Below are positions 20,679 through 47,674 of a DNA stretch of 64,000 nucleotides, piece by piece. The first letter of the stretch is position 1; every line of letters starts with the position of its first letter. This DNA is from Candidatus Bipolaricaulota bacterium (GTDB taxonomy: Bacteria > Bipolaricaulota > Bipolaricaulia > UBA7950 > UBA9294): NCBI GenBank assembly GCA_028278555.1, contig JANQEA010000043.1, positions 62,001 through 126,000 of the forward strand. Reading direction: 5' to 3'. Below the pieces are notes generated by a model. That model was not told the origin of the DNA. It was given only the letters and a program-made list of their open reading frames with translations, and did not search any database. The position numbers and the translations under genes are program-made.

Positions 20679-21815
20679 ATGTCGCGTGAGTACCAGATGT
20701 GTTCCCGCTGCGTCATGGACACAACGGCACAGGAGATTGACTTCGACGAACAAGGCGTATGCAATTTCTGCCGTGACTTTGACGCGCACGTTGCTCGTAT
20801 CTTGTCAACAACTGAGGAGGACCTGGCAAGCAGGTTCCGCGAGCTTGTGGCCGAGATCAAGAGCAAAGGGAAGGGGCAGCCGTACGACTCGGTTGTTGGG
20901 CTGAGCGGTGGAACAGACAGCTCGTACCTATGTCATCTCTGCGCCGACGCGGGTCTCCGTCCGCTCGTCGTCACGGTGGACACGGGCTGGGATTCTCCTG
21001 AGTCCGCTGAGAACATCCGAAGGCTATCATCGAAGCTGCCTTTCGAGTTCCGAACGGTGACGGTCGACTGGGAAGAGATGCGAGACCTCCAGGTCGCGTA
21101 CTACAAAGCTGCGGTTCAGAACTGCGAGGTGCCTCAGGATCACGTGTTCCTGGCGATTCTGTACGAGGAAGCTGCTAAGGCGAAGGCCCGCTCGCTGCTG
21201 ACGGGCGGGAATCTCGCTACGGAGTCGATTCTGCCCGCATCTTGGTCATTCAACGCGGCGGACGTGCGCAATCTCAAGGCCATCCACCGACGTTTCGGCA
21301 CCAAGCCGTTGCGCCGTTTCCAGACCCTGCCCTTCTGGAAGCGGTATGCGTACTACCCGTTCATACGCGGGATCAGAGAAGTTCGGCTCCTGAATTTCGT
21401 TCCCTACAACAGAAGCGAGGCAAAGCGTCTCCTCGAGCGTGAGTATGGATGGCAGGACTACGGCCCGAAGCACTACGAATCCATCCTTACTCGCTTTTTC
21501 CAGGCATACGTTCTTCCAACGAGGTTCGGAATCGACAAGCGGCGCGCGCATTTCTCGAGCCTGATCGTGTCCGGGCAGATGGATCGAGACGAGGCACTGC
21601 AGCTGTTGGAGGCTCCGCCCTATCCAAGCGAGGAACTCCTCGAAGAGGATATGGCTCACATCGCGCAGAAACTGGACCTATCTCCTGAGGAGTGGAAGGA
21701 GATTCTCGCCTTGCCGCCGCGAGCGCATACGGAGTTCCCGTCGTCGCAGTGGCTCTTCTCCCTCAAGGACACGCTGGTCAGGCGACTAGGTGTGCGGCGG
21801 CGATGGTGGGGGTAG
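20679..21815 (+). CDS. wbpG: N-acetyl sugar amidotransferase, WbpG type
   Basis: This 378-residue ATP-pyrophosphatase-fold protein has the PP-loop SGGTDSS at residues 76-82 and a four-cysteine metal site near the N-terminus (CSRCVMD, then CNFC). Characterised WbpG relatives convert an N-acetyl group on a uronic acid or nonulosonate into an acetamidino group, using ammonia from a glutaminase. In Pseudomonas the partners are HisH- and HisF-like subunits. None is visible here, so the fused amidotransferase at 25729 is a candidate ammonia source. The gene lies nine bases after a GT4 gene. Confidence 0.83.
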   Translation: MSREYQMCSRCVMDTTAQEIDFDEQGVCNFCRDFDAHVARILSTTEEDLASRFRELVAEIKSKGKGQPYDSVVGLSGGTDSSYLCHLCADAGLRPLVVTVDTGWDSPESAENIRRLSSKLPFEFRTVTVDWEEMRDLQVAYYKAAVQNCEVPQDHVFLAILYEEAAKAKARSLLTGGNLATESILPASWSFNAADVRNLKAIHRRFGTKPLRRFQTLPFWKRYAYYPFIRGIREVRLLNFVPYNRSEAKRLLEREYGWQDYGPKHYESILTRFFQAYVLPTRFGIDKRRAHFSSLIVSGQMDRDEALQLLEAPPYPSEELLEEDMAHIAQKLDLSPEEWKEILALPPRAHTEFPSSQWLFSLKDTLVRRLGVRRRWWG

Positions 21816-22978
21816 ATGCGCCGACCGAAGCCACTCCGGTGAAGCGCGTTGTCCACCTCAGTTCGGTACACGACGCCGCAGACCCACGAATCCTACATCG
21901 AGAAGCCAAGACCCTGGCGGCCGCGGGATACGACGTCGTGGTTGTCGCCAAACACGCGGGTGAGGAGTACGCGGACTCCGTCCGGATTGCTCCGATTCCC
22001 GTGCCGAAGAACCGCCTTTCCCGCATCCTACTGGCGGCTCCGCGCACCGCTCTTCGCGCGCGGGCACTCCGTGGGGATGTGTATCACATCCATGATCCGG
22101 AGCTGCTCCCTTGGGCATGGCTCCTTCAGCGAATGGGGCGGCGGCCTGTTGTCTATGACGTCCATGAGTACTACGCCGAGAGCATTCTGACGAAAGATTG
22201 GATTCCGAGGTTCTTGCGGAGACCGCTCTCGAAGGTGGTGGACTGGCTGGAGAAGGCATTTGCGAGAAGCCTTGCCGCGGTTGTCACAGTGAACGCGGAC
22301 ATGGAGCTTTCGTTCGCGAAGCTGGGAGCCCATGCAGTTGCAGTCAGCAACTATCCTGAACGGACCCTTGCAGAAAGAGTGCCGCCATCAGGCCTCAAGG
22401 AATCATTCGATATTCTCTATCTGGGGGGAGCGAGCCGACTCCGCGGGTACGAACTGATGCTTCGCGTCATGGAACAGGTCAGCGAGGCTGAACCGAATGC
22501 GCGATGCGTTGTGGTGGGACCCATCGACCGGACGGGCATCTCGAACGAGGCAACCGCACTTGAACGTGCGCTGCTTGCAGAGAATGTCCTCTTGCCCATC
22601 GGCCCGGTTCCGTATGAAGCCGTGCCTCGGTTTCTCGCCGCCTCGTTCATTGGATGGGTGCCATGGCGGGACACGCCCAACAACCGTCGCGGAATGCCGC
22701 TCAAACTCTTCGAGTACATGTCGGCGGGCCTCCCTGTCGTGGCCTCGAAGATCGGATTGATTGCGGAGATCGTTGCGGGGGCCGGGTGCGGTCTCTTGAT
22801 CGCTCCGGAGGATGTCTTCGCTCACGCCGAGGCGATTCTCTCCTTGCTTGGCGACAGAGACCGCGCCTACGAACTCGGCCAGGCCGGCCGCTCGGCCGTG
22901 CTTGAGACCTACAACTGGGAGAGCCAGGGGAAACATCTGCTGGCTCTCTATCGGGAGCTCCTCGATGGAAGTCCTTAG
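21803..22978 (+). CDS. glycosyltransferase family 4
   Basis: This 391-residue GT-B protein starts at an ATG overlapping the wbpG stop by 13 bases; the longer frame upstream is shadowed by wbpG. The acceptor half begins VVHLSSVHDAADPRI and includes DVYHIHDPELLPWAW and VYDVHEYYAE, which are common in WbpH/WbuB-like and FucT-like enzymes. The donor half has LYLGGASRLRGYELML and PLKLFEYMSAGLPVVASKIG. It is translationally linked to the WbpI-type epimerase that follows and may transfer the resulting uronic acid, but that is only inferred from position. Confidence 0.85.
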   Translation: MVGVDAPTEATPVKRVVHLSSVHDAADPRILHREAKTLAAAGYDVVVVAKHAGEEYADSVRIAPIPVPKNRLSRILLAAPRTALRARALRGDVYHIHDPELLPWAWLLQRMGRRPVVYDVHEYYAESILTKDWIPRFLRRPLSKVVDWLEKAFARSLAAVVTVNADMELSFAKLGAHAVAVSNYPERTLAERVPPSGLKESFDILYLGGASRLRGYELMLRVMEQVSEAEPNARCVVVGPIDRTGISNEATALERALLAENVLLPIGPVPYEAVPRFLAASFIGWVPWRDTPNNRRGMPLKLFEYMSAGLPVVASKIGLIAEIVAGAGCGLLIAPEDVFAHAEAILSLLGDRDRAYELGQAGRSAVLETYNWESQGKHLLALYRELLDGSP

Positions 22979-24095
22979 CGTAGTCGGAGCACGGCCGCAG
23001 TTCGTGAAGCTGGGGCCGATCTGCCGAGCCATCGCCGTCTCGACAAGAGGTTCGCGGTTGGTTCATCGGATCATTCACACGGGACAGCACTACGACACGG
23101 GGATGTCTGATACCTTCTTCCGGGATCTGGATCTGCCACGGCCCGACATCAATCTCGGGATTGGCTCGGGCGACCACGGTGCCCAGACGGGTCGCATGCT
23201 CGCCGGACTCGAGGGTGTCTTCCTGGCGCACCGACCGGATCTTGTCGTCGTATACGGCGACACCAATTCGACTCTCGCTGCGGGGCTGGCGGCGGCCAAA
23301 CTACACATCTCCGTCGCCCATGTCGAAGCCGGCCTCCGCAGCTTCCGCAAGGAGATGCCCGAGGAGGTGAACCGCGTCCTGGTCGACCATCTCTCGACTC
23401 TCTTGTGTTGTCCGACAACCACCGCGGTACACAATCTCACGAAGGAAGGGATCGAACAGGGCATCTCCTCTGATGCTGCGTCAGTCAATCAGCCTGCTGT
23501 CGTACTGACCGGCGATGTGATGAAAGACGCTGTTCTCCAGAATCTCGAGCGCGCTGCTCAGCGTCCGGAGACATTGGAAAGGCTAGGTATCGACGATACA
23601 GGCTACGCTGTCGCGACGATTCATCGCGCCGAGAATACCGATGACGTTCTGCGGTTGACGGGGATTGTCGAGGCACTCACGCAACTTGGGAGCGAGCTAC
23701 CCGTTGTCGTTCCGCTGCATCCGCGGACGCGGAAAGCGCTGTCCGAAATGGGCATCCGGATGGACGGTCACTCGGTGCGTTGGGTCGAGCCGCTCTCGTA
23801 TCTCGACATGCTGTGGCTTGTCTCCAAGGCGAGACTCGTGCTGACCGATTCGGGTGGTCTTCAGAAAGAAGCCTACATGCTTGGTGTTCCGTGCATCACG
23901 CTTCGGGATGAGACGGAATGGGTCGAGCTGACTGACACCGGTTGGAACCGACTTGCCGGCGCGAATCCGAAGCGCATTCTGGCCTCCGCAAGGGCTCTGC
24001 TTGAGGCGCCCCCATCTCCTGCATCGGAAAGCCTGTACGGAGACGGACATGCTGCGGAGAGAGTCTTGGAAAGCATCCTCGCGGTGGGACGATGA
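22965..24095 (+). CDS. wbpI: non-hydrolysing UDP-sugar 2-epimerase, WbpI type
   Basis: This 376-residue protein has all family landmarks: GARPQFVK, HTGQHYD, VYGDTNSTLAAG, HVEAGLRSFRKEMPEE, TIHRAENT and the uridine-binding DSGGLQKEAYMLGVPC. The segment LRDETEWVEL favours the WbpI subfamily, which epimerises UDP-2,3-diacetamido-glucuronate to the manno isomer, over WecB. The complete wbpABDE set upstream supports this. The start ATG overlaps the GT4 stop and is preceded by GGGAGCTC. It lies about 17 kb from wbpE, so the five-step pathway is split. Confidence 0.84.
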   Translation: MEVLSVVGARPQFVKLGPICRAIAVSTRGSRLVHRIIHTGQHYDTGMSDTFFRDLDLPRPDINLGIGSGDHGAQTGRMLAGLEGVFLAHRPDLVVVYGDTNSTLAAGLAAAKLHISVAHVEAGLRSFRKEMPEEVNRVLVDHLSTLLCCPTTTAVHNLTKEGIEQGISSDAASVNQPAVVLTGDVMKDAVLQNLERAAQRPETLERLGIDDTGYAVATIHRAENTDDVLRLTGIVEALTQLGSELPVVVPLHPRTRKALSEMGIRMDGHSVRWVEPLSYLDMLWLVSKARLVLTDSGGLQKEAYMLGVPCITLRDETEWVELTDTGWNRLAGANPKRILASARALLEAPPSPASESLYGDGHAAERVLESILAVGR

Positions 24096-24168
24096 AGCTA
24101 CCGAAGCAGATGGCGGAGGCACTCCTGCGCGAGCGAATGCCGAGTTGGCGACGGAAGGCGAGGAGGCC

Positions 24169-25707
24169 ATGACAGGCCGAGTTGCAAGGGGAAGTCCGAG
24201 GTACGTGCCCGTTCTCGGAAACGCGAAGACCAGAGGTGTGATAGGCCTCATCTTGGTCGTGGCTTCCGTTGCGGCCGAGGCGCTGATGTTCCGGGACGGA
24301 TCGGTCGCGATTCTCATGCTCATGACCTTCCTTGCGTGGGCGGTTTCGGCATACCTGACGCACAAGTACATCCACAAATACCCGCAGCGTTACGTGACCT
24401 ATCTTGTCGCTTCTCACACGAAGGCGGCGGTCGTCATGGCTGCCTGCCTGGCCGTGTTCGGATGGCTCATCGGCTCTGCTGCGGTCCCCTCGAAGGTCCT
24501 GTGGACTGGCTTCGGCCTCTTCGTCGTTTCCGACGCGCTCGTATCTGTCTTCCGACGCAGGGAAGCTGAAGATCGGCGGGCCCATCCAGGAGATCCTGTT
24601 TCCGAGAGTGGCGAGGACTCCTTGTCGTCCGCGACGGAGCCCCAATCCATCATCGACAGGGCGGCAGTCCTGGAGGAGGTTCGTTCCCGGCTGGCCGGTC
24701 CGATGGCCGATTTCGTCGAGCGGACCCTGCCGGATGCCTCTGGCGAGCGGACCGGCGTGATGATCCTTGATCGCCCTCCTGCCACGGGCCTGCCGGCGGC
24801 GTCGGATCCTTTCGCCCTTGTGGTTGCGCAGACACGTCTGAACGACGTCTACCGTCTGGACGAGTATCTGATCTCCTGTGCTCACTCGGTTGCGATGGGC
24901 GCCTACGTGCTCGTCCGGTATGCGCCCGTCGAGGGTGTTCCGAGGAGGCTTCGAGTCCGTTACGGACGTACGCTGTTCCGGCCGGCACGGGCGCTTCACT
25001 TCCTGTGGTCCCAGGCGATCCCGAAGATTCCTCTCCTCGGAGGGTTGCAGTACCTCGCGACGCGAAAGGGCAATCGGGCCTTGTCCAAAGCCGAGGTCTG
25101 GGGGCGCCTTTCCTACTGCGGAATGCACGTGGTTGGCGAAGCAGACGTGGCTGATGAGCGATACGTGCTCGCTCAACGGATCGGGGAGCCGGTTTCGGGG
25201 AAGAGGCCTTCGTACTACCCGATCATCGCGCTCGAGAAGGTAGGTCTTGATGGCAGGATCGTACGCCTGCACAAGTTGCGCTCGATGTTCCCGTACAGCG
25301 AATTCCTCCAGAAGAGGATCTATGAAGAGCACGGCTTGACCTCGACGGGGAAGTTTGCTGACGACTTTCGGATCACTGCATTCGGAAGGTTCGTCCGAAA
25401 GTACTGGCTCGACGAGCTGCCGCAGATCTTTGACTGGCTGCGTGGGGACGTCAAACTCGTCGGTATGAGGGCGACGAGTCCGCAGTATCTGAGCCTGTAT
25501 CCGGACGAAGTGATCGACCTGTACGTCCAAGTCAAGCCGGGGCTTGTCCCGCCGATCTTCGACGAATCGACGAATGGATTCGCCCGGATCGTTGAGGTGG
25601 AATCCGCCTACTTGAAACGGTATTGTGACGCACCGATCCGAACGGATGCTGCGTACTTCCTACGCACGTGCCGGGACATCTTCCGGAGAGGAGTCCGCGG
25701 GAGGTAG
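24169..25707 (+). CDS. membrane sugar transferase (polyprenyl phosphoglycosyltransferase-like)
   Basis: This protein of about 512 residues has four hydrophobic segments in the first 120 residues, a soluble linker and a C-terminal bacterial sugar-transferase domain. The core FGRFVRKYWLDELPQI carries the Asp-Glu dyad typical of phosphoglycosyltransferases. The motif that is normally VGPRP is VGMRA here. It may start a second lipid-linked glycan or be a diverged relative of the enzyme at 29148. The start is uncertain: AGGAGG lies only two bases before the ATG at 24169. An upstream frame extends into wbpI, and a TTG 27 bases upstream is possible. Confidence 0.72.
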   Translation: MTGRVARGSPRYVPVLGNAKTRGVIGLILVVASVAAEALMFRDGSVAILMLMTFLAWAVSAYLTHKYIHKYPQRYVTYLVASHTKAAVVMAACLAVFGWLIGSAAVPSKVLWTGFGLFVVSDALVSVFRRREAEDRRAHPGDPVSESGEDSLSSATEPQSIIDRAAVLEEVRSRLAGPMADFVERTLPDASGERTGVMILDRPPATGLPAASDPFALVVAQTRLNDVYRLDEYLISCAHSVAMGAYVLVRYAPVEGVPRRLRVRYGRTLFRPARALHFLWSQAIPKIPLLGGLQYLATRKGNRALSKAEVWGRLSYCGMHVVGEADVADERYVLAQRIGEPVSGKRPSYYPIIALEKVGLDGRIVRLHKLRSMFPYSEFLQKRIYEEHGLTSTGKFADDFRITAFGRFVRKYWLDELPQIFDWLRGDVKLVGMRATSPQYLSLYPDEVIDLYVQVKPGLVPPIFDESTNGFARIVEVESAYLKRYCDAPIRTDAAYFLRTCRDIFRRGVRGR

Positions 25708-25728
25708 CGGGCAACAAGGAGAAACGCG

Positions 25729-27804
25729 ATGTGTGGGATCTTCGGCGTGGTCTTGGGCAGTGACTCCGCCTACGGGCAAGCGTTTGCGAGGAAGTCGCTG
25801 ACGCAGCTTGCGCTGATGGCGGAGGCGCGGGGACAAGACTCATCCGGGCTGGCCTTCAGGGACCCGGCGAAGAAGCGGATCGAGATCTTCAAAGGCGACA
25901 TCTCGATCGAGGAACTGCTCGGCGACAAGCGCGTACGGCAGAAGATCGAGTCCCTGTCCGGGGCATATCATGCCAACACGGACCAGCCCTTCGTGGTGAT
26001 GGGGCACTCGAGGCTGGTGACGAACGGATCGCAGACGCGCAACGAGAACAATCAGCCGGTCGTCAAGAACGGTATCGTAGCCATTCACAACGGCATCATC
26101 ACGAACGACGGCGCGCTCTGGGAACGGCATCCTGAGCTGCAGCGCCAATATGACATCGATACCGAGGTCATGCTGGCGCTGATCCGAAAACACATCGAGG
26201 ACGGCTGGGGCGTTGCCACCGCAATCAACAAGACCGTTACGGAGGTGTTCGGTACCGTCGCTACCGCGCTTCTGTTCGAGGATCATCCGGCATTGGCCCT
26301 AACGAGCAACAACGGATCTCTCTACATCTTGACGAACGAAACGGATCTGCTTGTGTTCGCGTCGGAGGACCACTTCCTGCAAGTCTTCGCTACCAGGATG
26401 AGCCTCGACGAGGCGAACGGCTTCCGGCTTCGGCAAGTGAGCCCCGGCACGGGGTACGTGCTCGATATGGAGTCGTTTGACTTGAGGGAATTCGGGTATT
26501 CAGATGAGCCGCTGAGAGCAGCCGGCGACGTCATGGGAGGAGACTCCCATGATATCGAGGTCGAGTCCGTCGCGCGGCCACACGCTCAGGGTGAGTTGAT
26601 CATGGATCCTTGGGAGATCGCGTGGAAGCCGGAAGCCGCGAAAGAGGAAGCCCTGCTGGAGTACAACGTGGAGGATATCCGGACCCTCCGAAGGTGCAGC
26701 CGGTGCATTCTGCCCGAGACGTTCCCCTTCATCGAGTTCGATGAGCATGGGGTGTGCAACTACTGCCGCAACTACAAGATCCGCAACAACCCAAAGCCGA
26801 TCGACGAGCTGTTCGAGCTTGTCGCGCCCTATCGACGTTCGGACGGTCAACCCGATTGCCTGGTCCCGTACAGCGGCGGGCGAGACAGCACGTTCACCCT
26901 ACACGTCGTCAAGCGAGTGTTGGGTCTGAATCCGATCGCGTTCACCTACGACTGGGGAATGGTGAACGACCTTGCGCGCCGGAACACGGCGCGGGTCTGT
27001 GGGAAGCTGGGCGTGGAGCACATCTTCCGGGCGGCCGACCTTTGGTGGAAGCGCGAGAACGTGCGCAAGAACATCTTGGCCTGGCTGCGGAAACCCCATC
27101 TCGGCATGGTCCCTCTGTTCATGGCCGGCGACAAGTACTTCTACTACTACACGCATCAGATCAAGAGGCAGACGGGAATCCGGTTGAACATCTGGGGGGT
27201 CAATCCTCTGGAGAACACCGAGTTTAAGGTCGGGTTTCTCGGTGTTCCTCCCGACCACGACAAGAAGTGGATCTACTCCCTCTCGGCGCAAAGGCAGGCG
27301 AGGCTGTTCGCGAACATGGGGCGGATCGTCGCATCGAACCCGCGTTATCTGAATCGGAGCCTGTGGAATAGCGCGGGAGGCTTCCTGTGGAGATCCGTGC
27401 TGCCGAAGCGAGACTACGCGCACCTGTTCGACTATTACTGCTGGAACGAGAGCGAGGTCGAGGAGGTCCTCGAGGAATACGAGTGGGAACGGGCTGTGGA
27501 TACGCGCTTCTCGTGGCGAATCGGCGATGCGACGGCCCCGTTCTACAACTACATCTACTGCACCGTCGCCGGGTTCTCCGAGCACGATACGTTCCGGAGC
27601 AATCAGATCCGCGAAGGGATGTTGACTCGGGAGGAGGCGTTGAGGCTCGTGGAGGAAGAGAACCAGCCTCGCTATCCGTCCCTCAAGTGGTACACGAGTA
27701 TCGTGGGGCTCGACTACCGGACGACGATCGCGACGATCAATCGGATACCCAAGCTGTATGGGAATGGCGGACAGGCGAGACGGCGAGTCGAGGAGGGCGA
27801 GTGA
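25729..27804 (+). CDS. fused class II glutaminase and WbpG-type sugar amidotransferase
   Basis: This 691-residue two-domain enzyme starts MCGIFGVV, so after Met removal Cys2 would be the N-terminal nucleophile of an Ntn (GlmS/PurF-type) glutaminase. HSRLVTNGSQ and VAIHNGIITNDG complete that domain (to about residue 275). From residue 323 a WbpG-like half follows, with metal cysteines CSRC (323-326) and CNYC (343-346), then the PP-loop SGGRDS at 382-387. Glutamine hydrolysis and amidation of an N-acetyl sugar would occur in one polypeptide, replacing separate HisH/HisF-type partners. A ribosome site AAGGAG precedes the ATG. Confidence 0.82.
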   Translation: MCGIFGVVLGSDSAYGQAFARKSLTQLALMAEARGQDSSGLAFRDPAKKRIEIFKGDISIEELLGDKRVRQKIESLSGAYHANTDQPFVVMGHSRLVTNGSQTRNENNQPVVKNGIVAIHNGIITNDGALWERHPELQRQYDIDTEVMLALIRKHIEDGWGVATAINKTVTEVFGTVATALLFEDHPALALTSNNGSLYILTNETDLLVFASEDHFLQVFATRMSLDEANGFRLRQVSPGTGYVLDMESFDLREFGYSDEPLRAAGDVMGGDSHDIEVESVARPHAQGELIMDPWEIAWKPEAAKEEALLEYNVEDIRTLRRCSRCILPETFPFIEFDEHGVCNYCRNYKIRNNPKPIDELFELVAPYRRSDGQPDCLVPYSGGRDSTFTLHVVKRVLGLNPIAFTYDWGMVNDLARRNTARVCGKLGVEHIFRAADLWWKRENVRKNILAWLRKPHLGMVPLFMAGDKYFYYYTHQIKRQTGIRLNIWGVNPLENTEFKVGFLGVPPDHDKKWIYSLSAQRQARLFANMGRIVASNPRYLNRSLWNSAGGFLWRSVLPKRDYAHLFDYYCWNESEVEEVLEEYEWERAVDTRFSWRIGDATAPFYNYIYCTVAGFSEHDTFRSNQIREGMLTREEALRLVEEENQPRYPSLKWYTSIVGLDYRTTIATINRIPKLYGNGGQARRRVEEGE

Positions 27805-27846: not shown

Positions 27847-29058
27847 GTGAGCAAGACCGTCTGGTGCATCTCGAAATACGCCGTCCCCTTGAAGTACGGG
27901 TACGGGCATCGTCTCTTCAGCCTCGCGCGCGAATTCAACCGGCTGGGCCATCACGCCATGGTGATCACCTCGAATTCGAGCCACCTGTCGAAGCGGCCGA
28001 CCCTCGAATCAACCTATTCCCAAGAGACGATCGATGGTGTCGAGACGATGTGGATCAGGACGCTCCAGTACAGCGGGTCCGGGTCGGTACGGCGTGTGAT
28101 GAGTTGGTTGGATTTCGAGTTCAAGTTGTGGCGGATGCCGAAGCGGTCGCTTCCTCGGCCGGACGTCGTGATCGTCTCGTCCTTGTCCCTGTTGACGATT
28201 CTGAATGGATACCGTCTCAAGAGGAGATTCAACTGCCGGCTCATCTTCGAGATCCGAGACATCTGGCCGCTGACCCTGATTGAGGAGGGCGGATTCAGTC
28301 GAAGGAACCCGCTGGTCGCCTTTCTCGCTTGGGTGGAGAGATTCGGCTATCGGAAGGCCGACGCGATTGTCGGGACGATGCCGAATCTCGCCGAGCACGT
28401 CCGGGGCGTGATCGGGAGCTCGGAGAACTGCCATTGCATGCCGCTTGGATACGATCCGGCGCTGTATCGGGCCCCGGACCCGCTGCCGGAGGACTACGAG
28501 GAGCGATACATCCCGAAGAGGAAGTTCATCGTCGGATACGCCGGAAGCATCGGGGTGACGAACGCATTGGAGACGTTGATCGAGTGCGCGGAAGAGATGG
28601 CGGGAAGAGATGATGTCCACTTCCTCCTCGTTGGGGATGGGGGGCTACTCGACGGCTTCAAGGCGCGGACGGCTGGGCTGACGAACATCACGTTTGCGCC
28701 ACCGGTAGGGAAATCGCAGGTTCCGATGATCCTTCGGCATTGCGACGTTCTCTACTTCGGCGCCAAGCCGTCCATCGTCTGGCGCTACGGGCAATCGCTG
28801 AACAAGTTGATCGACTACATGATGGCCGGGAAGCCGATCATCGCTTCGTACAGTGGGTATCCGTCGATGATCGACGAAGCCGAATGCGGCCTCTTCGTTC
28901 CGGCCAACGACGTTGCCGCGCTCCGCGAGGCGATCCTGGCCTACTCACAGCGCTCCGAAGAGGAGTTGGAGGAGATCGGCCAGAGGGGGAAGGACTGGAT
29001 CCTGGCGCATCGTTCGTACGAGAGAATCGCGCAGGAGTACAGCAAGCTGCTAGACTGA
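27847..29058 (+). CDS. glycosyltransferase family 4, WbuB-like
   Basis: This 403-residue GT-B enzyme starts at a GTG with GAGGGAATCC before it. The N-terminal region VWCISKYAVPLKYGYGHR and the RLIFEIRDIWPLTLIEEGG segment are typical of WbuB/WbpH-like enzymes that add N-acetylfucosamine or related sugars. The C-terminal donor site contains VGYAGSIGVTNALETL and LIDYMMAGKPIIASYSG. It precedes the PglC-type initiating enzyme by 89 bases, so it may act on an early lipid-linked sugar. Specificity is not determinable here. Confidence 0.85.
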   Translation: MSKTVWCISKYAVPLKYGYGHRLFSLAREFNRLGHHAMVITSNSSHLSKRPTLESTYSQETIDGVETMWIRTLQYSGSGSVRRVMSWLDFEFKLWRMPKRSLPRPDVVIVSSLSLLTILNGYRLKRRFNCRLIFEIRDIWPLTLIEEGGFSRRNPLVAFLAWVERFGYRKADAIVGTMPNLAEHVRGVIGSSENCHCMPLGYDPALYRAPDPLPEDYEERYIPKRKFIVGYAGSIGVTNALETLIECAEEMAGRDDVHFLLVGDGGLLDGFKARTAGLTNITFAPPVGKSQVPMILRHCDVLYFGAKPSIVWRYGQSLNKLIDYMMAGKPIIASYSGYPSMIDEAECGLFVPANDVAALREAILAYSQRSEEELEEIGQRGKDWILAHRSYERIAQEYSKLLD

Positions 29059-29147
29059 CGGGCGGTCGCTTCCACGCCTCCGTGGCGCGTAGGGTGACTA
29101 GGGGGAATGGGGGGGCGTCTCGCGATGCCGGAGGGGAGCCCATCGGG

Positions 29148-29789
29148 ATGACGGTACAACGGTTCGGAAAGCGAGTGCTCGATCTGGCGATCGCTGCCGT
29201 GGGTCTGCTGCTCCTCGCGATCCCGTTCGGGGTCATCGCGGGTGCGATCAAGCTGGAGGATCGTGGCCGTGTCTTCTTCCGACAGGAGCGGATCGGGAAG
29301 GATGGACAGCCGTTTCGAGTCTGGAAGTTCCGCAGCATGGAGGAGGGGGCTCAGGAGAGAGGGCTTGGCGTGACGATGAGCAAGGACGACTCACGCATCA
29401 CCAAGACGGGGCGACGTCTGAGGGATTGGGGGCTCGACGAGCTACCGCAGCTGCTCAACGTGCTGTTCGGACAGATGAGCCTCGTCGGACCACGCCCCAC
29501 GCTTGCGTATCAAGTGGCGGAGTACGACGACTTCCAACGGCGCCGGCTTGAAGTGGCGCCTGGGATTACGAGTCTCGCCGTGATCTCGGGCCGGAACGCC
29601 CTTCCGTGGAAACGCCGGATCGAGTTCGATGTCGAGTACATCGACCGCTGGTCGCTCTGGCTCGATGCGAAGATCCTCCTCAAGACCTTGTGGGTGGTCC
29701 TTGTGAAGCGTCAGGGACTCTACGGCGAAGATGGGATCAACGACACGTTCATCCCGCTTGACGAGGACTCCAAGACGGGAGATGCGTGA
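29148..29789 (+). CDS. PglC-type initiating phosphoglycosyltransferase
   Basis: This 213-residue small monotopic phosphoglycosyltransferase has one re-entrant hydrophobic helix (residues about 11-34) followed by FFRQERIGKDG, VWKFRSM, the catalytic Asp-Glu in GLDELPQLLNVL and MSLVGPRP. The size and motifs match PglC, which moves a phospho-sugar (often N,N'-diacetylbacillosamine phosphate) from UDP to undecaprenyl phosphate. The ATG at 29148 has GGAGGGGAG upstream. The stop overlaps the PglD-type gene. The neighbouring acetyltransferase, aminotransferase and dehydratase make a bacillosamine-type donor the likely substrate. Confidence 0.86.
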   Translation: MTVQRFGKRVLDLAIAAVGLLLLAIPFGVIAGAIKLEDRGRVFFRQERIGKDGQPFRVWKFRSMEEGAQERGLGVTMSKDDSRITKTGRRLRDWGLDELPQLLNVLFGQMSLVGPRPTLAYQVAEYDDFQRRRLEVAPGITSLAVISGRNALPWKRRIEFDVEYIDRWSLWLDAKILLKTLWVVLVKRQGLYGEDGINDTFIPLDEDSKTGDA

Positions 29790-31585
29790 TGCGCACCGGC
29801 GGTAGAGGACTGTTGATTGTCGGAGCGGGAGGCCACGGCGAAGTTGTCCTCGATGTCGCCAAATGCTCGGGCCGATTTGCCGATTACCTCTTTCTCGATG
29901 AGAACCCGGCTGAACGTGGAACACACGTTCAGGGGGTTGAAGTGGCCGGAAGCCACGAGCTGCTTTCGCGACTCGACAAGGCCGACTGGGATGTCATAGT
30001 CGCGGTTGGAGATAACGAGGTACGTCGGAGACTTGCTGCTCAGATCGACGAGTTGGGATGGGGTTTCGCTTCGGTAACCCATCCGAGCGCGACGGTGGCC
30101 GAGGCTGTGGAGGTTTCGCCGGGCGTCGTCGTCTGCGCCGGTGCTGTGGTCAATCCGGGGGCACACCTGGGAGCGCATGCCATCGTCAACTCCCGGGCGG
30201 TCGTCGAGCATGATTGTTCGGTCGGTGCCTACGCGCACATCGCACCAGGCTCGTGCCTTGGCGGCGGCGTGCAAGTCGGGAGCGGTGCGTTGATCGGGAT
30301 CCGCGCCGCCGTCCTCCCGGGGACGAGAATCGGCGACTTCGCCGTGGTCGGAGCCGGGGCGAGCGTGATCAAAGACGTGTCGGAGCGGGCCGTTGTCGTG
30401 GGCGTTCCCGCTCGGGAGATCCGCCGAGAGACGATCGGTGTTGAGCGCGTCGTTCCGTCGTCGGCCCACCCTCGTAGGAGAGGCGGGACTGTCGCCGTCA
30501 CCGGTGTCGGCGGTGGTGTCGGCCTGCCGATTGTCCGCGCTCTGCGCGCCTCACACCTGTCACCGGAAATCGTTGGATTCGATGCGCGTTCCGATTCGGT
30601 CGGATTCCTCTGGTGTGATCACGGGCGCGTCGTCCCGTATGCGGAGGATCCTTCGTACGTTGAAACTGTCCTCTCCACGTGTCAGGAGCTCGGCGTCGAG
30701 GTGCTCATTCCAGGGTCGGATCCCGAGCTCCTTCCCCTCGCCGAGGCGAAGCCGGTCTTCAAGGAAGCCGGGATCGAGACGATTGTGAGCGCGCCGGATG
30801 CGATCCGTGTGGCGCGTGACAAGCACAAGACATGGCGATTCTGCGAGGAGAACGGACTGCCCTTCGCACGAACGGCCCTCGGATCGGACGCGCGCCGGTT
30901 GGCAGGCGAGGTCGGCTTCCCGCTGATCATCAAGCCGATCGGCGGTTCTGCCACGCGCGACGTCAGCATCGCGCAAGCGCCGAGCGATCTGCAATCGCTG
31001 GCCGGGCGGGATGACTTCATCGTGCAGGAGTATCTGCTCCCGACGGAGTGGCTGACTCGGGATGGAACGAAGCACCCGGGGGAGTCACACCTCTTCGCGA
31101 ATGGCTCGATCCGACAGGAGGACGAGATCTCGATCCAGCTTCTCTTCGACCCGTCCGGGGAGGAGTTGGGGGCCTTTGCGAGCCGAAACCGGCTGACCAA
31201 CGGCGTACCGGTCTTGATCGAACCACTCCAAGACGAGGGCGTGATCGGCAAAGGCCGGGAACTTGCGCGGAGTCTCCTGCCGCTTGGGCTGATCGGACCC
31301 TGCAACATCCAGGGGCGGATCACCGAGGAGGGCCTGAGGTTCTTCGAGATCAACCTCCGCTTCACGGGGATCACCGCGATGCGAACCGAGATGGGGTTTC
31401 GGGAAGTCGATGCCGTTCTCGACCGGATCTGGAAGAGTGCACCGCTTGCCAGCGCCAGAGCACAGTTGGCCTCTGTCCGGCACAGCGCCTGCATGCGATA
31501 CGTCACCGAAGCGTTCATGCCTCCTTCAGATCTTCGCCGGCTCCGCGAGACGGGAGAGTGGATGTCGGAGGACCACGGAACGTGA
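29789..31585 (+). CDS. fused PglD-type sugar acetyltransferase and ATP-grasp ligase
   Basis: This 598-residue fusion has residues 1-210 as a PglD/NeuD-type acyltransferase, with N-terminal IVGAGGHGEVVLD, a beta-helix and SRAVVEHDCSVGAYAHIAPG with the catalytic His. From about residue 235 a carbamoyl-phosphate-synthase-like ATP-grasp module follows, with a Rossmann-like lobe (VTGVGGGVGLPIVRAL), VARDKHKTWRFCEENG, LIIKPIGGSATRDV and a metal-binding FFEINLRFTG. It could acylate a 4-amino sugar in two ways. Neisseria PglB2 is a known case of an ATP-grasp domain that adds glycerate to such a sugar. The ATG at 29789 overlaps the upstream TGA by one base. Confidence 0.8.
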   Translation: MRTGGRGLLIVGAGGHGEVVLDVAKCSGRFADYLFLDENPAERGTHVQGVEVAGSHELLSRLDKADWDVIVAVGDNEVRRRLAAQIDELGWGFASVTHPSATVAEAVEVSPGVVVCAGAVVNPGAHLGAHAIVNSRAVVEHDCSVGAYAHIAPGSCLGGGVQVGSGALIGIRAAVLPGTRIGDFAVVGAGASVIKDVSERAVVVGVPAREIRRETIGVERVVPSSAHPRRRGGTVAVTGVGGGVGLPIVRALRASHLSPEIVGFDARSDSVGFLWCDHGRVVPYAEDPSYVETVLSTCQELGVEVLIPGSDPELLPLAEAKPVFKEAGIETIVSAPDAIRVARDKHKTWRFCEENGLPFARTALGSDARRLAGEVGFPLIIKPIGGSATRDVSIAQAPSDLQSLAGRDDFIVQEYLLPTEWLTRDGTKHPGESHLFANGSIRQEDEISIQLLFDPSGEELGAFASRNRLTNGVPVLIEPLQDEGVIGKGRELARSLLPLGLIGPCNIQGRITEEGLRFFEINLRFTGITAMRTEMGFREVDAVLDRIWKSAPLASARAQLASVRHSACMRYVTEAFMPPSDLRRLRETGEWMSEDHGT

Positions 31586-32550
31586 TCGCTTTCGTTACGG
31601 GCGCCACGGGGTATCTTGGAGCGGAGATCGTCGCGGAGCTGCTGCGGATCGAACGGACCCGAGTCCTTGCGGTCGGACGGAACGAGAGCAGGCTCCAGCA
31701 GTTGTCCGAGCGCTTCCGCGAGCACGCCGGCCGCTTGGACGTAGAGACGGCTGATCTCCTCTCGCTTCCTGAGATCCCGACCTCGACGGACGTTGTCATT
31801 CATGCGGCGGCGATTCGCATGCCCGAGTCTCCTGGTGAAATCGTCCGGATGAGACGGGTCAACGTGGAGGGGACGCGCCGCCTCCTGCAGCTGACCGCGG
31901 CGTGCGGACGGCTCCGGTTCGTCTATGCCTCGACGCAGTCCGTCTACGGATGGACGGGCGCCCCATGGAACGAAGACTCTCCGTGTTGCCCGCAGACCGA
32001 ATACGCGGCGACCAAGGTCGAGGGCGAGCGACTCACGGCTGGCTTCTCCGATCGGCTGGGGGTCTCGATCGTCCGGCTTGCCAGGCTCTATGGGATCACA
32101 CCCTTCACGCGCTGGTCGGAGCTGCCGGGACTCTTCGCCCGTCGGGTCGTCGCCGGCGAGCCGTTGAAGATCCGCGGCTCGGGGGAGAGCCGGTTGGATT
32201 TCTTGCACGTCACCGATGCCGCTCGGCTGTTCGTTCGGCTGGCGGTGTTGGAGCAGCCGAAATCGAGCGCCGTCTTCAATGCGGGAAGTGGTGGAAGCGT
32301 TAGCGTCAACCGGCTGGCGGAGACGTTCCGCAACTTGGCGGCCAGCCGGGGGCTGCCTGCCGTTCGTTTCGCACGTCATCCCGAGGTCGTCCATGAGGGG
32401 CCACAGCATCTCGAGATGGAGATCGCGAAGGTGAAGGAGGAAGTGGGCTGGATTCCCCAGGTCTCACTCGAACAAGGGCTCTCCGGCTACCTGGATGCCC
32501 TGGAACCGCGGATGGACGCACGTCCGGAAACGTCCCGGTCGATCGAGTAG
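31582..32550 (+). CDS. NAD-dependent epimerase/dehydratase (extended SDR)
   Basis: This 322-residue sugar-nucleotide SDR starts at a GTG that overlaps the fused acetyltransferase stop by four bases. GATGYLGAE is the nucleotide-binding loop, and YAATKVEGERL is the catalytic Tyr-x-x-x-Lys. YASTQSVYGW supplies the preceding serine/threonine position. RLDFLHVTDAARLF is typical of NDP-sugar epimerases and reductases. It may make another sugar of the repeat unit or reduce a 4-keto sugar. A UDP-glucose 4-epimerase activity is possible but not shown. Confidence 0.78.
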   Translation: MIAFVTGATGYLGAEIVAELLRIERTRVLAVGRNESRLQQLSERFREHAGRLDVETADLLSLPEIPTSTDVVIHAAAIRMPESPGEIVRMRRVNVEGTRRLLQLTAACGRLRFVYASTQSVYGWTGAPWNEDSPCCPQTEYAATKVEGERLTAGFSDRLGVSIVRLARLYGITPFTRWSELPGLFARRVVAGEPLKIRGSGESRLDFLHVTDAARLFVRLAVLEQPKSSAVFNAGSGGSVSVNRLAETFRNLAASRGLPAVRFARHPEVVHEGPQHLEMEIAKVKEEVGWIPQVSLEQGLSGYLDALEPRMDARPETSRSIE

Positions 32551-32575
32551 GATAGTGTCGGATTGGGGGGGCGAT

Positions 32576-33697
32576 ATGAGAATCCCGCTGGCGAGCCCGG
32601 ACATCGGCGACAGCGAAATCGAAGCCGTGCGAGAGGTCTTGGACGATGGGCGCCTCGCATTGGGCCCCAAGCTTCGTGAGTTCGAACGGGCGTTGGCGAC
32701 CTACGTCGGCGCGGACTGCGCGGTTGCGGTTAACAGCGGGACGAGCGCGCTTCATCTCGTACTGGAGGGGTTTGGGATCGGCGAGGGGGACGAGGTCATC
32801 ACGACGCCGTTCTCGTTTGTCGCCTCGGCGAACTGCGTCCATTTCGTGCGAGCCCGGCTCGTCTTCGCTGACATCGATCCGGGCACGCTGTGCATCGACC
32901 CAGCGGCGGTCGAGTCGGCCATCTCGCTGAAGACGAAGGCGATCCTCGGTGTCGATGTGTTCGGGCACCCGGCGGATTGGCCCGCCCTCGAGGAGATTGC
33001 GGCACGATATGAACTGTTGCTGATCGAGGATTCGGCGGAGTCCTTGGGGTCTGTTCAATCCGGCAGGCGGTGCGGATCGTTCGGCCACGCTGCCGTGTTC
33101 GGCTTCTATCCGAACAAGCAGATCACGACCGGTGAGGGTGGGATGGTGGTCACCGGCGACCGTGAGCTCGAGCGGATCTGCCGGAGCATGGCCAACCAGG
33201 GACGCGGCGACGGCGACGATTGGCTGGAGCACGTCCGTCTCGGCTACAACTACCGCATGGATGAGCTCTCGGCGGCGCTCGGAGTGGCTCAGATGGGACG
33301 GATCGGGGAGATCCTCGAAGCACGAGGAAGCGTCGCGAGCCTCTATGACGAGGCGCTGAGCGGAATCGAGGGGATCTTGACTCCACGGGCCGTTGGCGAC
33401 GTGGGCGTCTCCTGGTTCGTCTATGTCATCCGGCTCGATGATGCGTTCGAGCGAGCCGATCGAGACCGTGTCATTCGAGGGCTGACCGAGCGCGGCATCG
33501 GCTGCCGGAACTACTTCGCTCCCATCCATCTGCAGCCGTTCTACCGCGACAGGTTCGGGACGAGAGAAGGGGAGTACCCGGTTGCCGAAGCCGCCGGGGC
33601 GCGAACGATCGCCTTGCCGTTCCACAATCGACTGAGCGAGAACGAGATCGACTACGTGGCTTCGGCGCTGAGGGAAGAGCTGGGGCGGATTCGATGA
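32576..33697 (+). CDS. PLP-dependent sugar aminotransferase, PglE-like
   Basis: This 373-residue DegT/DnrJ/EryC1/StrS aminotransferase starts at an ATG after a G-rich stretch. NSGTSALHLVLEGFG, IEDSAESLGS and the PLP lysine in FGFYPNKQITTGEGGM are present. By position, directly before the FlaA1/PglF-type dehydratase and overlapping it by four bases, it probably transaminates UDP-4-keto-6-deoxy-GlcNAc as PglE does. The order aminotransferase then dehydratase and the proximity of PglC/PglD-type genes favour this over a second WbpE activity. Confidence 0.82.
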   Translation: MRIPLASPDIGDSEIEAVREVLDDGRLALGPKLREFERALATYVGADCAVAVNSGTSALHLVLEGFGIGEGDEVITTPFSFVASANCVHFVRARLVFADIDPGTLCIDPAAVESAISLKTKAILGVDVFGHPADWPALEEIAARYELLLIEDSAESLGSVQSGRRCGSFGHAAVFGFYPNKQITTGEGGMVVTGDRELERICRSMANQGRGDGDDWLEHVRLGYNYRMDELSAALGVAQMGRIGEILEARGSVASLYDEALSGIEGILTPRAVGDVGVSWFVYVIRLDDAFERADRDRVIRGLTERGIGCRNYFAPIHLQPFYRDRFGTREGEYPVAEAAGARTIALPFHNRLSENEIDYVASALREELGRIR

Positions 33698-35589
33698 GCC
33701 GTCGCGCATCGAACTGGCGAGAGACGCTCCGGCTCGGCCGAACCGGGTTCCTCATTGCGGACATCCTGATCGTCTCCCTTTCGATTACCCTTGCATACTG
33801 GCTCCGGTTCGACGGGCGGATTCCCGAGCCGCACTTCACGACGATGCTGTTCAGCATCCCGTTGGCCGTCTGTGCGAAGGTCCCGGTGCTGATGCTCCTC
33901 CGGATGTATCGATTCAGTTGGCGTCACGTCGGGATACGGGAGGTGCTCGGCGCGATCATCGCCTGCAACATCGGATCGGCGGCCCTCGCTGCGGCCTTCC
34001 TGTTGATGCGAGAGGTCGTCGTCTACGCCTCCGTGCCGAGGTCCGTGTTGGCGATCGACTACGCCCTTTGCTTGATCGGGATCAGCGGGGTTCGGCTGTC
34101 AAACCGGCTGTGGGCGCTTATCTGGGAGAGGCCTCGCACGCGCGGTCGCGCAAAGGGCAAGCGTGCACTGATCGTCGGCGCCGGTGACGCCGGAACGAGC
34201 TTGGTGAGAAGCCTCGTCGAAGAGGGAGCATCGCAGTATCTGCCGGTCGGTTTCCTCGATGACGACCGGGGCAAGTGGGGATTGATCATTCACGGCGTGC
34301 GGGTCGTCGGAGGCCGAAGGCAGCTGAGGACGGCGGCCGAAACCCACCGCGCTGAGGCAGTGCTGATCGCGGTCCCCTCGACGGAGGGGCCGTTCGTCGG
34401 TGATACCGTTTCGCGGGCGCGTGAAGCCGGGATCTCGGACGTAAGGATTCTTCCTCCGCTCAGCCAGCTGTACAGCTCGGAAGTTCACGTCAAGGAGCTG
34501 CGTGAGGTGACGCCGGAGGATCTCCTCTACCGGCAGCGGGTGTCGATCGACACGAAAGCGATCGAGCAGTTGGTCCGGGATCGGTCGGTGCTCGTCACGG
34601 GGGCGGCCGGTTCGATCGGCTCGGAACTCTGTCGGCAAGCCCTTCGATTCCGCGTGGGACATCTGGTCTGTCTCGACAACGACGAGACGGGATTGTTCTA
34701 CCTTGAGAAAGACCTCGAGGAACGGTTCCACGGCCGGTCGATCTCGTATTGCATCGGAGACATCCGGGATCGGCGGCGCATCGTCGAAGTGCTGCGTGCG
34801 GAGAAACCAAGCATTCTGTTCCACGCGGCCGCCTACAAACACGTGCATGTGATGGAGCGAGATCCGGCGGAGGCGGTCAAGACGAATGTCTTCGGGACCG
34901 AGTGCGTGGTCGACGAGGCCTGTAAGCATGGCGCGGAAGCCGTTGTCATGATCTCGACGGACAAGGCGGTCGATCCGTGTTCGGTCATGGGTGTTACGAA
35001 ACGCGTCGCGGAGTTGATCACCCACTCCTACAACGGGAGAACGGTGACTCGCTGCATGGCCGTCCGGTTCGGGAACGTGCTTGGCAGCCGCGGAAGCGTG
35101 TTGCCGATCTTCGAGGAACAGATCCGCCGAGGCGGACCGGTGACGATCACCGATCCGGAGATGTCCAGGTACTTCATGGTCACATCCGAAGCGGTCCTCT
35201 TGGTCCTTGAAGCGGCGGCGATGGGGCAGGGAGGGGAAGTCTTCGTCCTCGACATGGGCGAGCCGGTCTCGATCCTGGAATTGGCGAAGGATCTGATCCG
35301 CTCGCACGGCCTTGAGCCGGATCAAGACATCCCGATCGTCTTCACCGGCGCTCGCCCGGGCGAACGTCTGTGTGAGGAGCTGCTCACGGCTGAAGAGGGG
35401 ACCGATTCGACGACCCACGAGAAGATCTTCATCGCCCGGCTCGGCTCCCAATGGGCGACGGAGGAACTCGCGGAGCAGCTCGAACGGCTCCGCGGGCCGG
35501 CAGAGGGTGGACAGCGGGATCGCATCGTGGAGACCCTCTGCGCATTGGTTCCGTCCTACACACCCTGCGAGACGGCGGATGCCCCGTAG
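33694..35589 (+). CDS. FlaA1/WbpM/PglF-type UDP-GlcNAc 4,6-dehydratase
   Basis: This 631-residue membrane enzyme has four N-terminal hydrophobic segments (to about residue 140) and a first Rossmann module (LIVGAGDAGTSL). The catalytic module has LVTGAAGSIGSELCRQ, MISTDKAVDP and SVMGVTKR. The usual catalytic tyrosine of YxxxK is methionine (M432, K436), as in WbpM-type inverting or retaining 4,6-dehydratases. It would produce UDP-4-keto-6-deoxy-GlcNAc. With the PglE-, PglD- and PglC-type genes it completes a bacillosamine-type route. It overlaps its neighbours at both ends. Confidence 0.9.
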   Translation: MSRRASNWRETLRLGRTGFLIADILIVSLSITLAYWLRFDGRIPEPHFTTMLFSIPLAVCAKVPVLMLLRMYRFSWRHVGIREVLGAIIACNIGSAALAAAFLLMREVVVYASVPRSVLAIDYALCLIGISGVRLSNRLWALIWERPRTRGRAKGKRALIVGAGDAGTSLVRSLVEEGASQYLPVGFLDDDRGKWGLIIHGVRVVGGRRQLRTAAETHRAEAVLIAVPSTEGPFVGDTVSRAREAGISDVRILPPLSQLYSSEVHVKELREVTPEDLLYRQRVSIDTKAIEQLVRDRSVLVTGAAGSIGSELCRQALRFRVGHLVCLDNDETGLFYLEKDLEERFHGRSISYCIGDIRDRRRIVEVLRAEKPSILFHAAAYKHVHVMERDPAEAVKTNVFGTECVVDEACKHGAEAVVMISTDKAVDPCSVMGVTKRVAELITHSYNGRTVTRCMAVRFGNVLGSRGSVLPIFEEQIRRGGPVTITDPEMSRYFMVTSEAVLLVLEAAAMGQGGEVFVLDMGEPVSILELAKDLIRSHGLEPDQDIPIVFTGARPGERLCEELLTAEEGTDSTTHEKIFIARLGSQWATEELAEQLERLRGPAEGGQRDRIVETLCALVPSYTPCETADAP

Positions 35590-45796: not shown

Positions 45797-47674
45797 ATGG
45801 CTGAAGGGTACTGCGGAAAGATTCTGTACGTCGATCTGACGGAACGGACGACGAAGGTCGAAGAGCCGACCGAGGATCACTATCGGATGTACCTCGGCGG
45901 ATGGGGATTCATCGCCGACGAGCTGCTGAGGCGCACGCCGGCCGGAATCGACCCGTTCGCTCCGGAGAATCCGCTCGTTTTCGCGACCGGTGTGGCTTCC
46001 GGAACGTCGATCCCGGGGAGCGGTCGCCATGCGGTCGGCGCGAAGTCGCCGCTGACCGGCGGATTCGGCGAGGCCGACGTCGGCGGATATTGGGCCGCCG
46101 AACTGAAGCGGGCCGGCTTCGACGCGGTCGTCATCACCGGCGCGTCCGACGTGCCGGTCTATCTGTGGATCAAGGATGGAGAGGTCGAGATCCGGGACGC
46201 TGAACAGCTCTGGGGAAAGGAGACGGCCGAGGTTCAGGCGGCGATCCGAGCGGAGCATGACGACGACAAGGTTCGTGTTATCCAGTGTGGGATCGCCGGA
46301 GAGAACCTCGTCCGGTTCGCGTGCGTGATCAGCGATGTCAACCGGGCGGCCGGCCGGACCGGCCTCGGTGCGGTGATGGGATCGAAGAAGCTGCGAGCTC
46401 TTGCGGTTCGCGGAACGGGAACAGTCGAGGTCGCCGACGCCGCTGGCGCGAAGAAGATCGTCGACTATGTCGTCGGATTGCGCGAGCGGTTTGCGAACTT
46501 CCACGAGCACGGGACCGGCGGCGGGATCGTCGGGATGGACGAGGTCGGCCGCCTGCCGACGAAGAACTTCCAAGACGGGAAGTTCGAGGGGGCGGCGAAG
46601 ATCGCCGGAACGACGATGACCGAGACGTACCTCGTCGATCGCGAGACGTGCCACGCCTGCCCGATCGCCTGCAAGCGGGTGGCGAAGGTCGATGGGGAGT
46701 ACACCGTCGATCCGATCTACGGCGGCCCGGAATACGAAAGCCTGGCGTCGCTCGGCTCGATCTGCTGCGTCGACAACCTGGCGGCGGTCATCTACGCCAA
46801 CCAGCTGTGCAACGCGTACGGGCTCGACACGATCTCGACCGGCGTCACGATCGGCTGGGCGATGGAGTGCTTCGAACGCGGTCTTCTCCCGGCGGACGAG
46901 ACCGGCGGGCTCGAGCCTCGATTTGGGGACCACAAGGTGATGACGCAACTCGTCGAGCAGATCGCGCGGCGTGAAGGGCTCGGGGAGCTCCTCGCCGAGG
47001 GATCGCTCCGCGCGGCCCGGAAGATCGGGAACGACACGGAGCGGTTCGCCGTCCACGCGAAGGGGCAGGAGTTCCCGATGCACGATCCGCGGTGGCAGTT
47101 CGGCCTCGGGATCGGGTACGCGACATCGCCGACCGGCGCCGATCACATGCACAACTTCCACGATTCCGGCGTCGCTTCGGAAGCCGGCGCTGCGCGGGTG
47201 AAGCCGTACGGCTTCTACATCGAGCCGATGGAGCGGACGACGCTCCCGGCGACGAAGTCGGCGCTCGCAGCGACGAGCATCCGCGTTCAGGTGATGCGAA
47301 ACTGCGTCGGCGTCTGCATGTTCCTCCCGTATCAGCTCTCCCATTTCCGAGAGATCGTCAGTGCCGTCACCGGTTGGGACGTTACCGATCTGGAGCTGTC
47401 TCGTGTCGGAGAGCGGGCGCTGGCGATGGCGAGGTTGTACAACGCGCGCGAGGGATTAACGCCGTCCGACGACGTGCAGAATCCACGATTCGCCGAGCCA
47501 CTGATGCTCGCAGGGGAGGAAGGCCCAGCGATCACCGAACGCCAGATGCAAGAGGCGGTCGACCTCTACTACGAGATCCAGGGTTGGGACAAGGCGACCG
47601 GTGCGCCGACACGTGCGAAGCTGGTCGAACTCGGTCTGGAGTGGGCAGAGAGTGCGCTGGAGGGAAGCAGATGA
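45797..47674 (+). CDS. aldehyde ferredoxin oxidoreductase, tungstopterin type
   Basis: This 625-residue enzyme oxidises an aldehyde to a carboxylate and passes electrons to a low-potential carrier. The 4Fe-4S ligands are visible as CHACPIAC (Cys285, 288 and 292) plus a distant cysteine in RNCVGVC (Cys503). This spacing is that of the AOR family. The N-terminus YCGKILYVDLT and the pterin-binding SDVNRAAGRTGLGAVMGSKK fit. GGAGGTG precedes the ATG. Neighbouring reductases and a flavodoxin suggest a shared aldehyde pathway, but the substrate is unknown. No MoaD-like or ferredoxin gene is adjacent. Confidence 0.9.
   Translation: MAEGYCGKILYVDLTERTTKVEEPTEDHYRMYLGGWGFIADELLRRTPAGIDPFAPENPLVFATGVASGTSIPGSGRHAVGAKSPLTGGFGEADVGGYWAAELKRAGFDAVVITGASDVPVYLWIKDGEVEIRDAEQLWGKETAEVQAAIRAEHDDDKVRVIQCGIAGENLVRFACVISDVNRAAGRTGLGAVMGSKKLRALAVRGTGTVEVADAAGAKKIVDYVVGLRERFANFHEHGTGGGIVGMDEVGRLPTKNFQDGKFEGAAKIAGTTMTETYLVDRETCHACPIACKRVAKVDGEYTVDPIYGGPEYESLASLGSICCVDNLAAVIYANQLCNAYGLDTISTGVTIGWAMECFERGLLPADETGGLEPRFGDHKVMTQLVEQIARREGLGELLAEGSLRAARKIGNDTERFAVHAKGQEFPMHDPRWQFGLGIGYATSPTGADHMHNFHDSGVASEAGAARVKPYGFYIEPMERTTLPATKSALAATSIRVQVMRNCVGVCMFLPYQLSHFREIVSAVTGWDVTDLELSRVGERALAMARLYNAREGLTPSDDVQNPRFAEPLMLAGEEGPAITERQMQEAVDLYYEIQGWDKATGAPTRAKLVELGLEWAESALEGSR

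Follow-up and report, generated by a model that had tools for sequence, protein, structure and literature searches.

A class II glutaminase fused to a NASAT-type synthetase: a predicted one-chain amidotransferase for N-acetyl sugars

A gene at positions 25729-27804 (+) of the window, the whole stretch of 64,000 nucleotides of Candidatus Bipolaricaulota DNA that was analysed, encodes a protein of 691 amino acids in which a class II glutaminase is joined to a NASAT-type PP-loop synthetase, as delimited from the open reading frame, Pfam and NCBIfam profiles and an AlphaFold2 model. The protein is probably a self-contained glutamine-dependent N-acetyl-sugar amidotransferase with an acetamidino product. 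In its known forms, the sugar-amidine step is carried out by three separate proteins. For the fusion, the two-domain architecture, the intact residues, both folds with their confident relative placement, the operon context and the lack of dependence on HisH and HisF are established. Amidino sugars have been found on O-antigens, flagellins and exopolysaccharides, and the mechanism of the NASAT step is little understood (PMC10607449). Demonstrating the reaction, and tracking ammonia between the two sites, would be simplest with a stable one-chain enzyme that generates the ammonia itself. Further, the HisH/HisF pair and the class II glutaminase fusion would represent parallel solutions, in different lineages, for the supply of ammonia to a PP-loop synthetase.

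Domain architecture and active sites of the fusion protein

The open reading frame has zero internal stops and is preceded by a ribosome-binding-like site, AAGGAG (25716-25721 (+)), read from the sequence 7 nt 5′ of the ATG. The protein begins with MCGIFG, placing a cysteine directly after the initiator methionine as an Ntn glutaminase requires. The Ntn (Cys2) glutaminase domain occupies residues ~1-260 (25729-26508 (+)) and is defined by GATase_6/7 matches, a structural match to 1xff and invariant catalytic residues. It is followed by an inter-domain segment, residues 261-318 (26509-26682 (+)), corresponding to the gap between the two structural matches, and by the NASAT-type synthetase domain, residues ~319-682 (26683-27774 (+)), recognised by a structural match to 8wex and by the profile TIGR03573. 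Pfam returned GATase_6/GATase_7 only, in the N-terminal half, and the NCBIfam model for WbuX, TIGR03573, matched residues 322-494 with 126.1 bits (E 2e-36), under its curated cut-off of 203.2 bits. On the glutaminase half, the NCBIfam scores were 63.8 bits for GlmS, 48.9 for PurF and 32.1 for AsnB. The GlmS models cover only residues 1-228 of the fusion (profile positions 1-210 of 601) and the SIS isomerase domains are absent; the match to AsnB (TIGR01536, cut-off 267.1 bits) extends over profile positions 1-175 of 517 only and is confined to the glutaminase, the Asn_synthase domain being absent. In an alignment of 66 relatives, the WbuX model and the GlmS-type subfamily model were both matched by all 66.

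These matches place the protein between several known systems. With GlmS (glutamine-fructose-6-phosphate transaminase) it shares the N-terminal glutaminase and the same catalytic residues, but its acceptor domain is a PP-loop ATPase instead of SIS isomerase domains. The order of an N-terminal class II glutaminase and then a PP-loop synthetase is that of AsnB and other glutaminase/PP-loop synthetases, whereas the synthetase of the fusion is NASAT-like and its glutaminase is, by profile score, nearer to GlmS.

The AlphaFold2 model, computed with the 66-sequence alignment, had a pLDDT of 93.4 and a pTM of 0.92, and the position of each half relative to the other is predicted with confidence; within the inter-domain segment, pLDDT falls to 68 and 81 in two blocks of 10 residues. 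Residues 2-260 could be superimposed on the GlmS glutaminase 1xff_A (Z 25.0, rmsd 2.7, 224 residues aligned, 23% identity) and residues 319-682 on 8wex_A, the LpNASAT of Legionella pneumophila (Z 23.8, rmsd 4.4, 315 residues aligned, 21% identity; PMC10607449). LpNASAT is alike over the whole C-terminal domain, but it has no glutaminase domain and its PP-loop reads SGGKDS where the fusion has SGGRDS. A Foldseek comparison of the model with solved chains found none that covered both halves well (TM to query at most 0.35), and a profile search of the sequences of solved structures matched each half separately, with no full-length relative. The absence of a solved chain holding both halves is no proof that the predicted domain arrangement is new.

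All 82 relatives compared retain the full-length two-domain architecture. Cys2 of the glutaminase is conserved in 81/81 homologs with sequence at that position, and R95, T98, H120, N121, G122 and D144 are invariant among the 82 wherever sequence is present. The correspondence of residues was taken from an alignment to the GlmS of the same genome, and R95, T98, N121, G122 and D144 are the counterparts of R73, T76, N98, G99 and D123 of GlmS (E. coli numbering). In the synthetase half, the tetracysteine metal site (C323-x2-C326 ... C343-x2-C346; 26695-26766 (+)) and the ATP pyrophosphatase motif, the PP-loop SGGRDS at residues 382-387 (26872-26889 (+)), are identical in 82/82 homologs, and the same half displays invariant blocks of its own (YDWG, RRN, GDK, WR.GD and SNQ.R). 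The intact metal site and PP-loop reported in the first-pass annotation were thus confirmed; loss of activity residues from the glutaminase half, which it had named as a finding that would speak against its reading, was checked by alignment, and all the residues are intact. This conservation bears on the possibility that the glutaminase half is vestigial or regulatory and that the synthetase runs on free ammonium. Stand-alone NASAT-like proteins with no visible partner do exist (L119, L149/L159), but catalytic residues invariant in 82 sequences from many phyla are unexpected for a vestigial domain, which makes this explanation very improbable.

If the fusion is a self-contained amidotransferase, removal of Met1 would expose Cys2 as the Ntn nucleophile and the glutaminase domain would hydrolyse glutamine. 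The ammonia would then travel inside the protein to the NASAT domain at the C terminus, where the PP-loop would convert ATP to AMP and PPi and so activate a nucleotide-linked amino sugar at its N-acetyl group. Attack by the ammonia would give the acetamidino sugar that enters the surface polysaccharide of the locus, both the amidine and the identity of the sugar being predictions.

Ammonia supply with and without HisH and HisF

The canonical WbpG/WbuX proteins (TIGR03573) have in common with the fusion the NASAT fold, the tetracysteine site, a PP-loop of the form SGGxDS and a polysaccharide-locus context. The difference lies in the ammonia source, which is the fused class II glutaminase in one case and HisH together with HisF (HisF2/AglZ/WbuZ) in the other. 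HisF4, HisH2 and an LPS biosynthesis protein adjoin one another in a Legionella O-antigen locus (PMC3694923), and a Sphingomonas cluster holds WbuX, HisF2 and HisH (PMC11340318). When the surroundings within 10 kb were compared, HisH and HisF2 were both found in 15/16 stand-alone WbuX loci and in 4/56 fusion loci (p=5e-11), the stand-alone controls being mostly from Gamma- and Alphaproteobacteria, that is, not matched in taxonomy to the fusion loci. Analysis of 50 whole genomes carrying the fusion pointed in the same direction: HisF2 over cut-off was present in 12/15 genomes in which a stand-alone WbuX accompanies the fusion and in 0/35 in which none does (Fisher 3.7e-9). Among the three genomes with WbuX and the fusion in which HisF2 did not exceed the cut-off, one (G101) has a HisF homolog adjoining WbuX and another (G112) has an AglZ/HisF2 just below the cut-off, so that 14/15 of the genomes with both proteins carry a modification-type or WbuX-adjacent HisF homolog. 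Among 274 evenly sampled genomes of Gammaproteobacteria, a HisF homolog lay at most 5 kb from 25/29 stand-alone WbuX genes, and four had no HisF nearby.

Since HisH and HisF2 occur with the stand-alone WbpG and not with the fusions, and HisF2 is missing from all 35 fusion genomes without a stand-alone WbpG, ammonia is most likely supplied by the fused glutaminase in place of HisH/HisF. The same replacement, in a single chain of class II glutaminase and NASAT synthetase, had been proposed from the window alone, and it is supported by the intact residues and by the lack of a HisF/HisA homolog in the genome. A natural HisF-WbuX fusion of 685 amino acids, found directly 3′ of a HisH-like gene in a gammaproteobacterial locus (L156:1392-3449), supports a physical partnership between HisF and WbuX in the canonical system. 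In this protein, two of the canonical partners are contained in one chain.

The window also holds a stand-alone canonical WbpG/WbuX (20679-21815 (+); TIGR03573, 256 bits, over cut-off). It had been noted as lacking a visible partner, and the search of the genome for hisH or hisF genes dedicated to the locus but located elsewhere left it so: profiles TIGR03572, TIGR01855 and TIGR00735 detected no HisF/HisA (WbuZ) homolog in the genome of the window beyond weak matches, with a fragmentary hisF match of 25.7 bits, and the sole HisH-like match reached 27.6 bits. Because HisF over cut-off is absent from 31/33 genomes of the family to which the window belongs, its absence looks like a trait of the lineage and not just a gap in the assembly. 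The pattern suggests that histidine synthesis is missing from this lineage.

An orphan of this kind raised the possibility, already put forward in the first-pass annotation, that the fusion supplies ammonia both to its own synthetase and to the WbpG at 20679, through leakage or a direct complex. A canonical WbuX has been retained in a genome without HisF and with a weak HisH-like match, HisF over cut-off is found in only 2/33 genomes of the family, and the two genes are ~4 kb apart on the same strand, all of which would fit such sharing. However, because a HisF homolog is retained in 14 of the 15 other genomes where the fusion coexists with a stand-alone WbuX, the fusion does not normally spare HisF, and sharing is disfavoured as a general rule. 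Further, the four WbuX genes of Gammaproteobacteria without a near HisF indicate that an orphan can occur without any fusion, and class II glutaminase domains are usually coupled to their own synthetase. Shared supply is consequently held to be unlikely, and the fusion most likely acts independently of the WbpG at 20679, modifying a different sugar or position.

Other departures from the canonical form were seen among the stand-alone proteins. One WbuX (L134:862-2640) is extended at its N terminus by a segment similar to the first half of a glycosyltransferase, in a genome from which HisF2 is absent. In L136, L137, L138 and L140, WbuX scores over the cut-off and most of the tetracysteine motif has been lost (e.g. 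CVRTIMDT...GVSSHA).

The locus and the candidate sugar substrate

The same-strand neighbours of the fusion gene, 21 bp upstream and 42 bp downstream, indicate that it lies in an operon. The upstream neighbour (23953-25707 (+)) is an atypical sugar transferase-like gene with a partial PF02397 (Bac_transf) match and an N-terminal extension; close relatives have this gene immediately 5′ of the fusion, and in several Bacteroidota loci it immediately follows the fusion. Proteins of this type were also seen in L037, L040 and L051. The downstream neighbour (27847-29058 (+)) encodes a GT4 glycosyltransferase, and a member of that family is found directly 3′ of the fusion in 20 loci. The surrounding genes comprise a UDP-GlcNAc 2-epimerase type gene (WecB/WbpI-like; 22812-24095 (+); TIGR00236 over cut-off), a PglC-like initiating sugar transferase (28740-29789 (+); PF02397), a NeuD/PglD-type acetyltransferase of 599 amino acids fused to an ATP-grasp domain (29786-31585 (+); TIGR03570 over cut-off and ATP-grasp matches), a DegT/PglE-type sugar aminotransferase (32495-33697 (+); PseC/LegC-like NCBIfam matches) and a WbpM-type UDP-GlcNAc 4,6-dehydratase (33694-35589 (+); PseB/FnlA NCBIfam matches and an EPS_sugtrans N-terminal part). 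The window also contains a WbpA-like nucleotide-sugar 6-dehydrogenase (2124-3449 (+); TIGR03026 over cut-off), a WbpB-like UDP-GlcNAc 3-dehydrogenase (3446-4387 (+); NF040723, 182.5 bits), a WbpD-like acetyltransferase (4288-4968 (+); tblastn marker and sequence inspection) and a WbpE-like aminotransferase (4899-6101 (+); PseC-like NCBIfam matches), the true starts of the last two being probably internal. The WbpA/B/D/E-like and WecB/WbpI-type genes and the WbpM/PglE/PglD/PglC set make a diacetamido-uronic acid as well as a diacetamido-trideoxy sugar candidates for the sugar substrate.

Across the family, fusion genes lie in polysaccharide operons, and the PglC/D/E genes were present in 23/56 fusion loci versus 1/16 stand-alone loci. 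WbpA and WbpB occurred together in only 3/83 fusion loci, and the WbpA/B/D/E-type set belongs to a small minority. With the WbpA/B/D/E/I-like genes of the window, UDP-ManNAc3NAcA is plausible as the substrate of its fusion, though not general to the fusion family. The PglC/D/E and WbpA/WbpB counts favour, as the target, an N-acetyl group on an amino sugar rather than the carboxylate of a uronic acid, the preference being weak because genes for initiating sugars are common in such loci. Uronic-acid dehydrogenases were found in only 13/83 fusion loci, and true AsnB-type genes stood alongside the fusion in 13/56.

The last two counts are relevant to the proposal that the fusion forms a carboxamide on a uronic acid, with chemistry like that of AsnB or WbpS, and not an N-acetyl amidine. 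In its favour, AsnB is built on the same general plan, with a class II glutaminase preceding a PP-loop synthetase; the synthetase half has diverged, scoring 126 bits where the WbuX cut-off is 203; and a nucleotide-sugar 6-dehydrogenase lies within the window. On the other side, the synthetase half matches NASAT, with its tetracysteine site and 315 aligned residues, the AsnB match comes through the glutaminase only, few fusion loci have a uronic-acid dehydrogenase and the true AsnB-type enzymes coexist with the fusion. Carboxamide formation is accordingly a rather improbable alternative to the acetamidino sugar. Because the synthetase halves fall below the WbuX cut-off in 50/50 fusion genomes, their chemistry could nevertheless have diverged.

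Elsewhere in the window (45797-48645), a match to aldehyde ferredoxin oxidoreductase covers the first 226 residues of an open reading frame only and a long overlapping open reading frame then follows, a possible frameshift or fusion.

Distribution and relatives of the fusion family

Far from being confined to this locus, the fusion represents a widespread family without a name of its own. A scan of GTDB retrieved at least 80 loci, 40-62% identical to the query and aligned along almost all of it, and three plasmids, from Solidesulfovibrio and two Agrobacterium strains, carry full-length fusions at ~43% identity. Among the listed GTDB matches, the fusion occurs in Thermodesulfobacteriota, Alpha-, Beta- and Gammaproteobacteria, Bacteroidota, Ignavibacteria, Chloroflexota, Planctomycetota, Verrucomicrobiota, Acidobacteriota, Actinomycetota, Bacillota, Campylobacterota, Nitrospinota and Patescibacteria, and in one archaeal MAG, occurrences in lineages known only from MAGs having to be treated with caution. 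The merging of two adjacent genes by an assembly or sequencing error has a negligible probability, given that at least 80 independent full-length homologs are found elsewhere, some of them in isolates such as Geomonas paludis (L038), in addition to the three complete plasmids; a mis-joined assembly or a chance open reading frame is ruled out on the same grounds. A search for the same fusion in polysaccharide loci without hisH/hisF had been suggested; of the 56 fusion loci compared, only four hold HisH and HisF2.

Within Bipolaricaulota, 99 other genomes were searched and yielded no fusion, but only glutaminase-domain and stand-alone NASAT-like matches, and the two closest relatives among the listed GTDB matches are deltaproteobacterial. 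For these reasons, the fusion of the window was likely acquired from outside the phylum. No fusion was found in the viral contigs searched, and 97 matching phage records included none covering at least 80% of the query, the listed matches being glutaminase domains.

In a tree of the synthetase domain with 30 fusions and 21 stand-alone proteins, the fusions fell on one side of a branch with an SH-aLRT of 99, the nearest stand-alone rows being on long branches and hence uncertain in placement. The fusions were again on one side in a tree with 82 of them, in which some of the stand-alone rows are AsnB open reading frames. Both trees fit a single joining event behind the family. The description of the synthetase half as WbpG-type holds for its fold and motifs but not for close membership of that family, since it forms a separate clade under the WbuX cut-off, with SGGRDS and the motifs YDWG, GDK, WR.GD and SNQ.R. 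On balance, the evidence leans towards a distinct and widespread family in which a GlmS-type glutaminase and a NASAT were joined once, HisH/HisF was dispensed with, and the resulting enzyme, with a nucleotide sugar of its own as substrate, was passed horizontally among bacterial phyla. The open-access literature, to which the search was directed, yielded no description of a glutaminase-fused sugar amidotransferase. The public names of the plasmid-encoded proteins are inconsistent, and annotation can be corrected for fusions now called 7-cyano-7-deazaguanine synthase, glucosamine 6-phosphate synthetase or hypothetical protein.

NASAT-like sequences were also met in a different setting. One locus (L157:2247-5228 (-)) encodes an NRPS-like module in which the adenylation domain is followed by a NASAT-like cysteine/PP-loop domain, and NASAT-like matches on Roseovarius and Streptomyces plasmids (H91, H92) likewise lie within NRPS-like genes.
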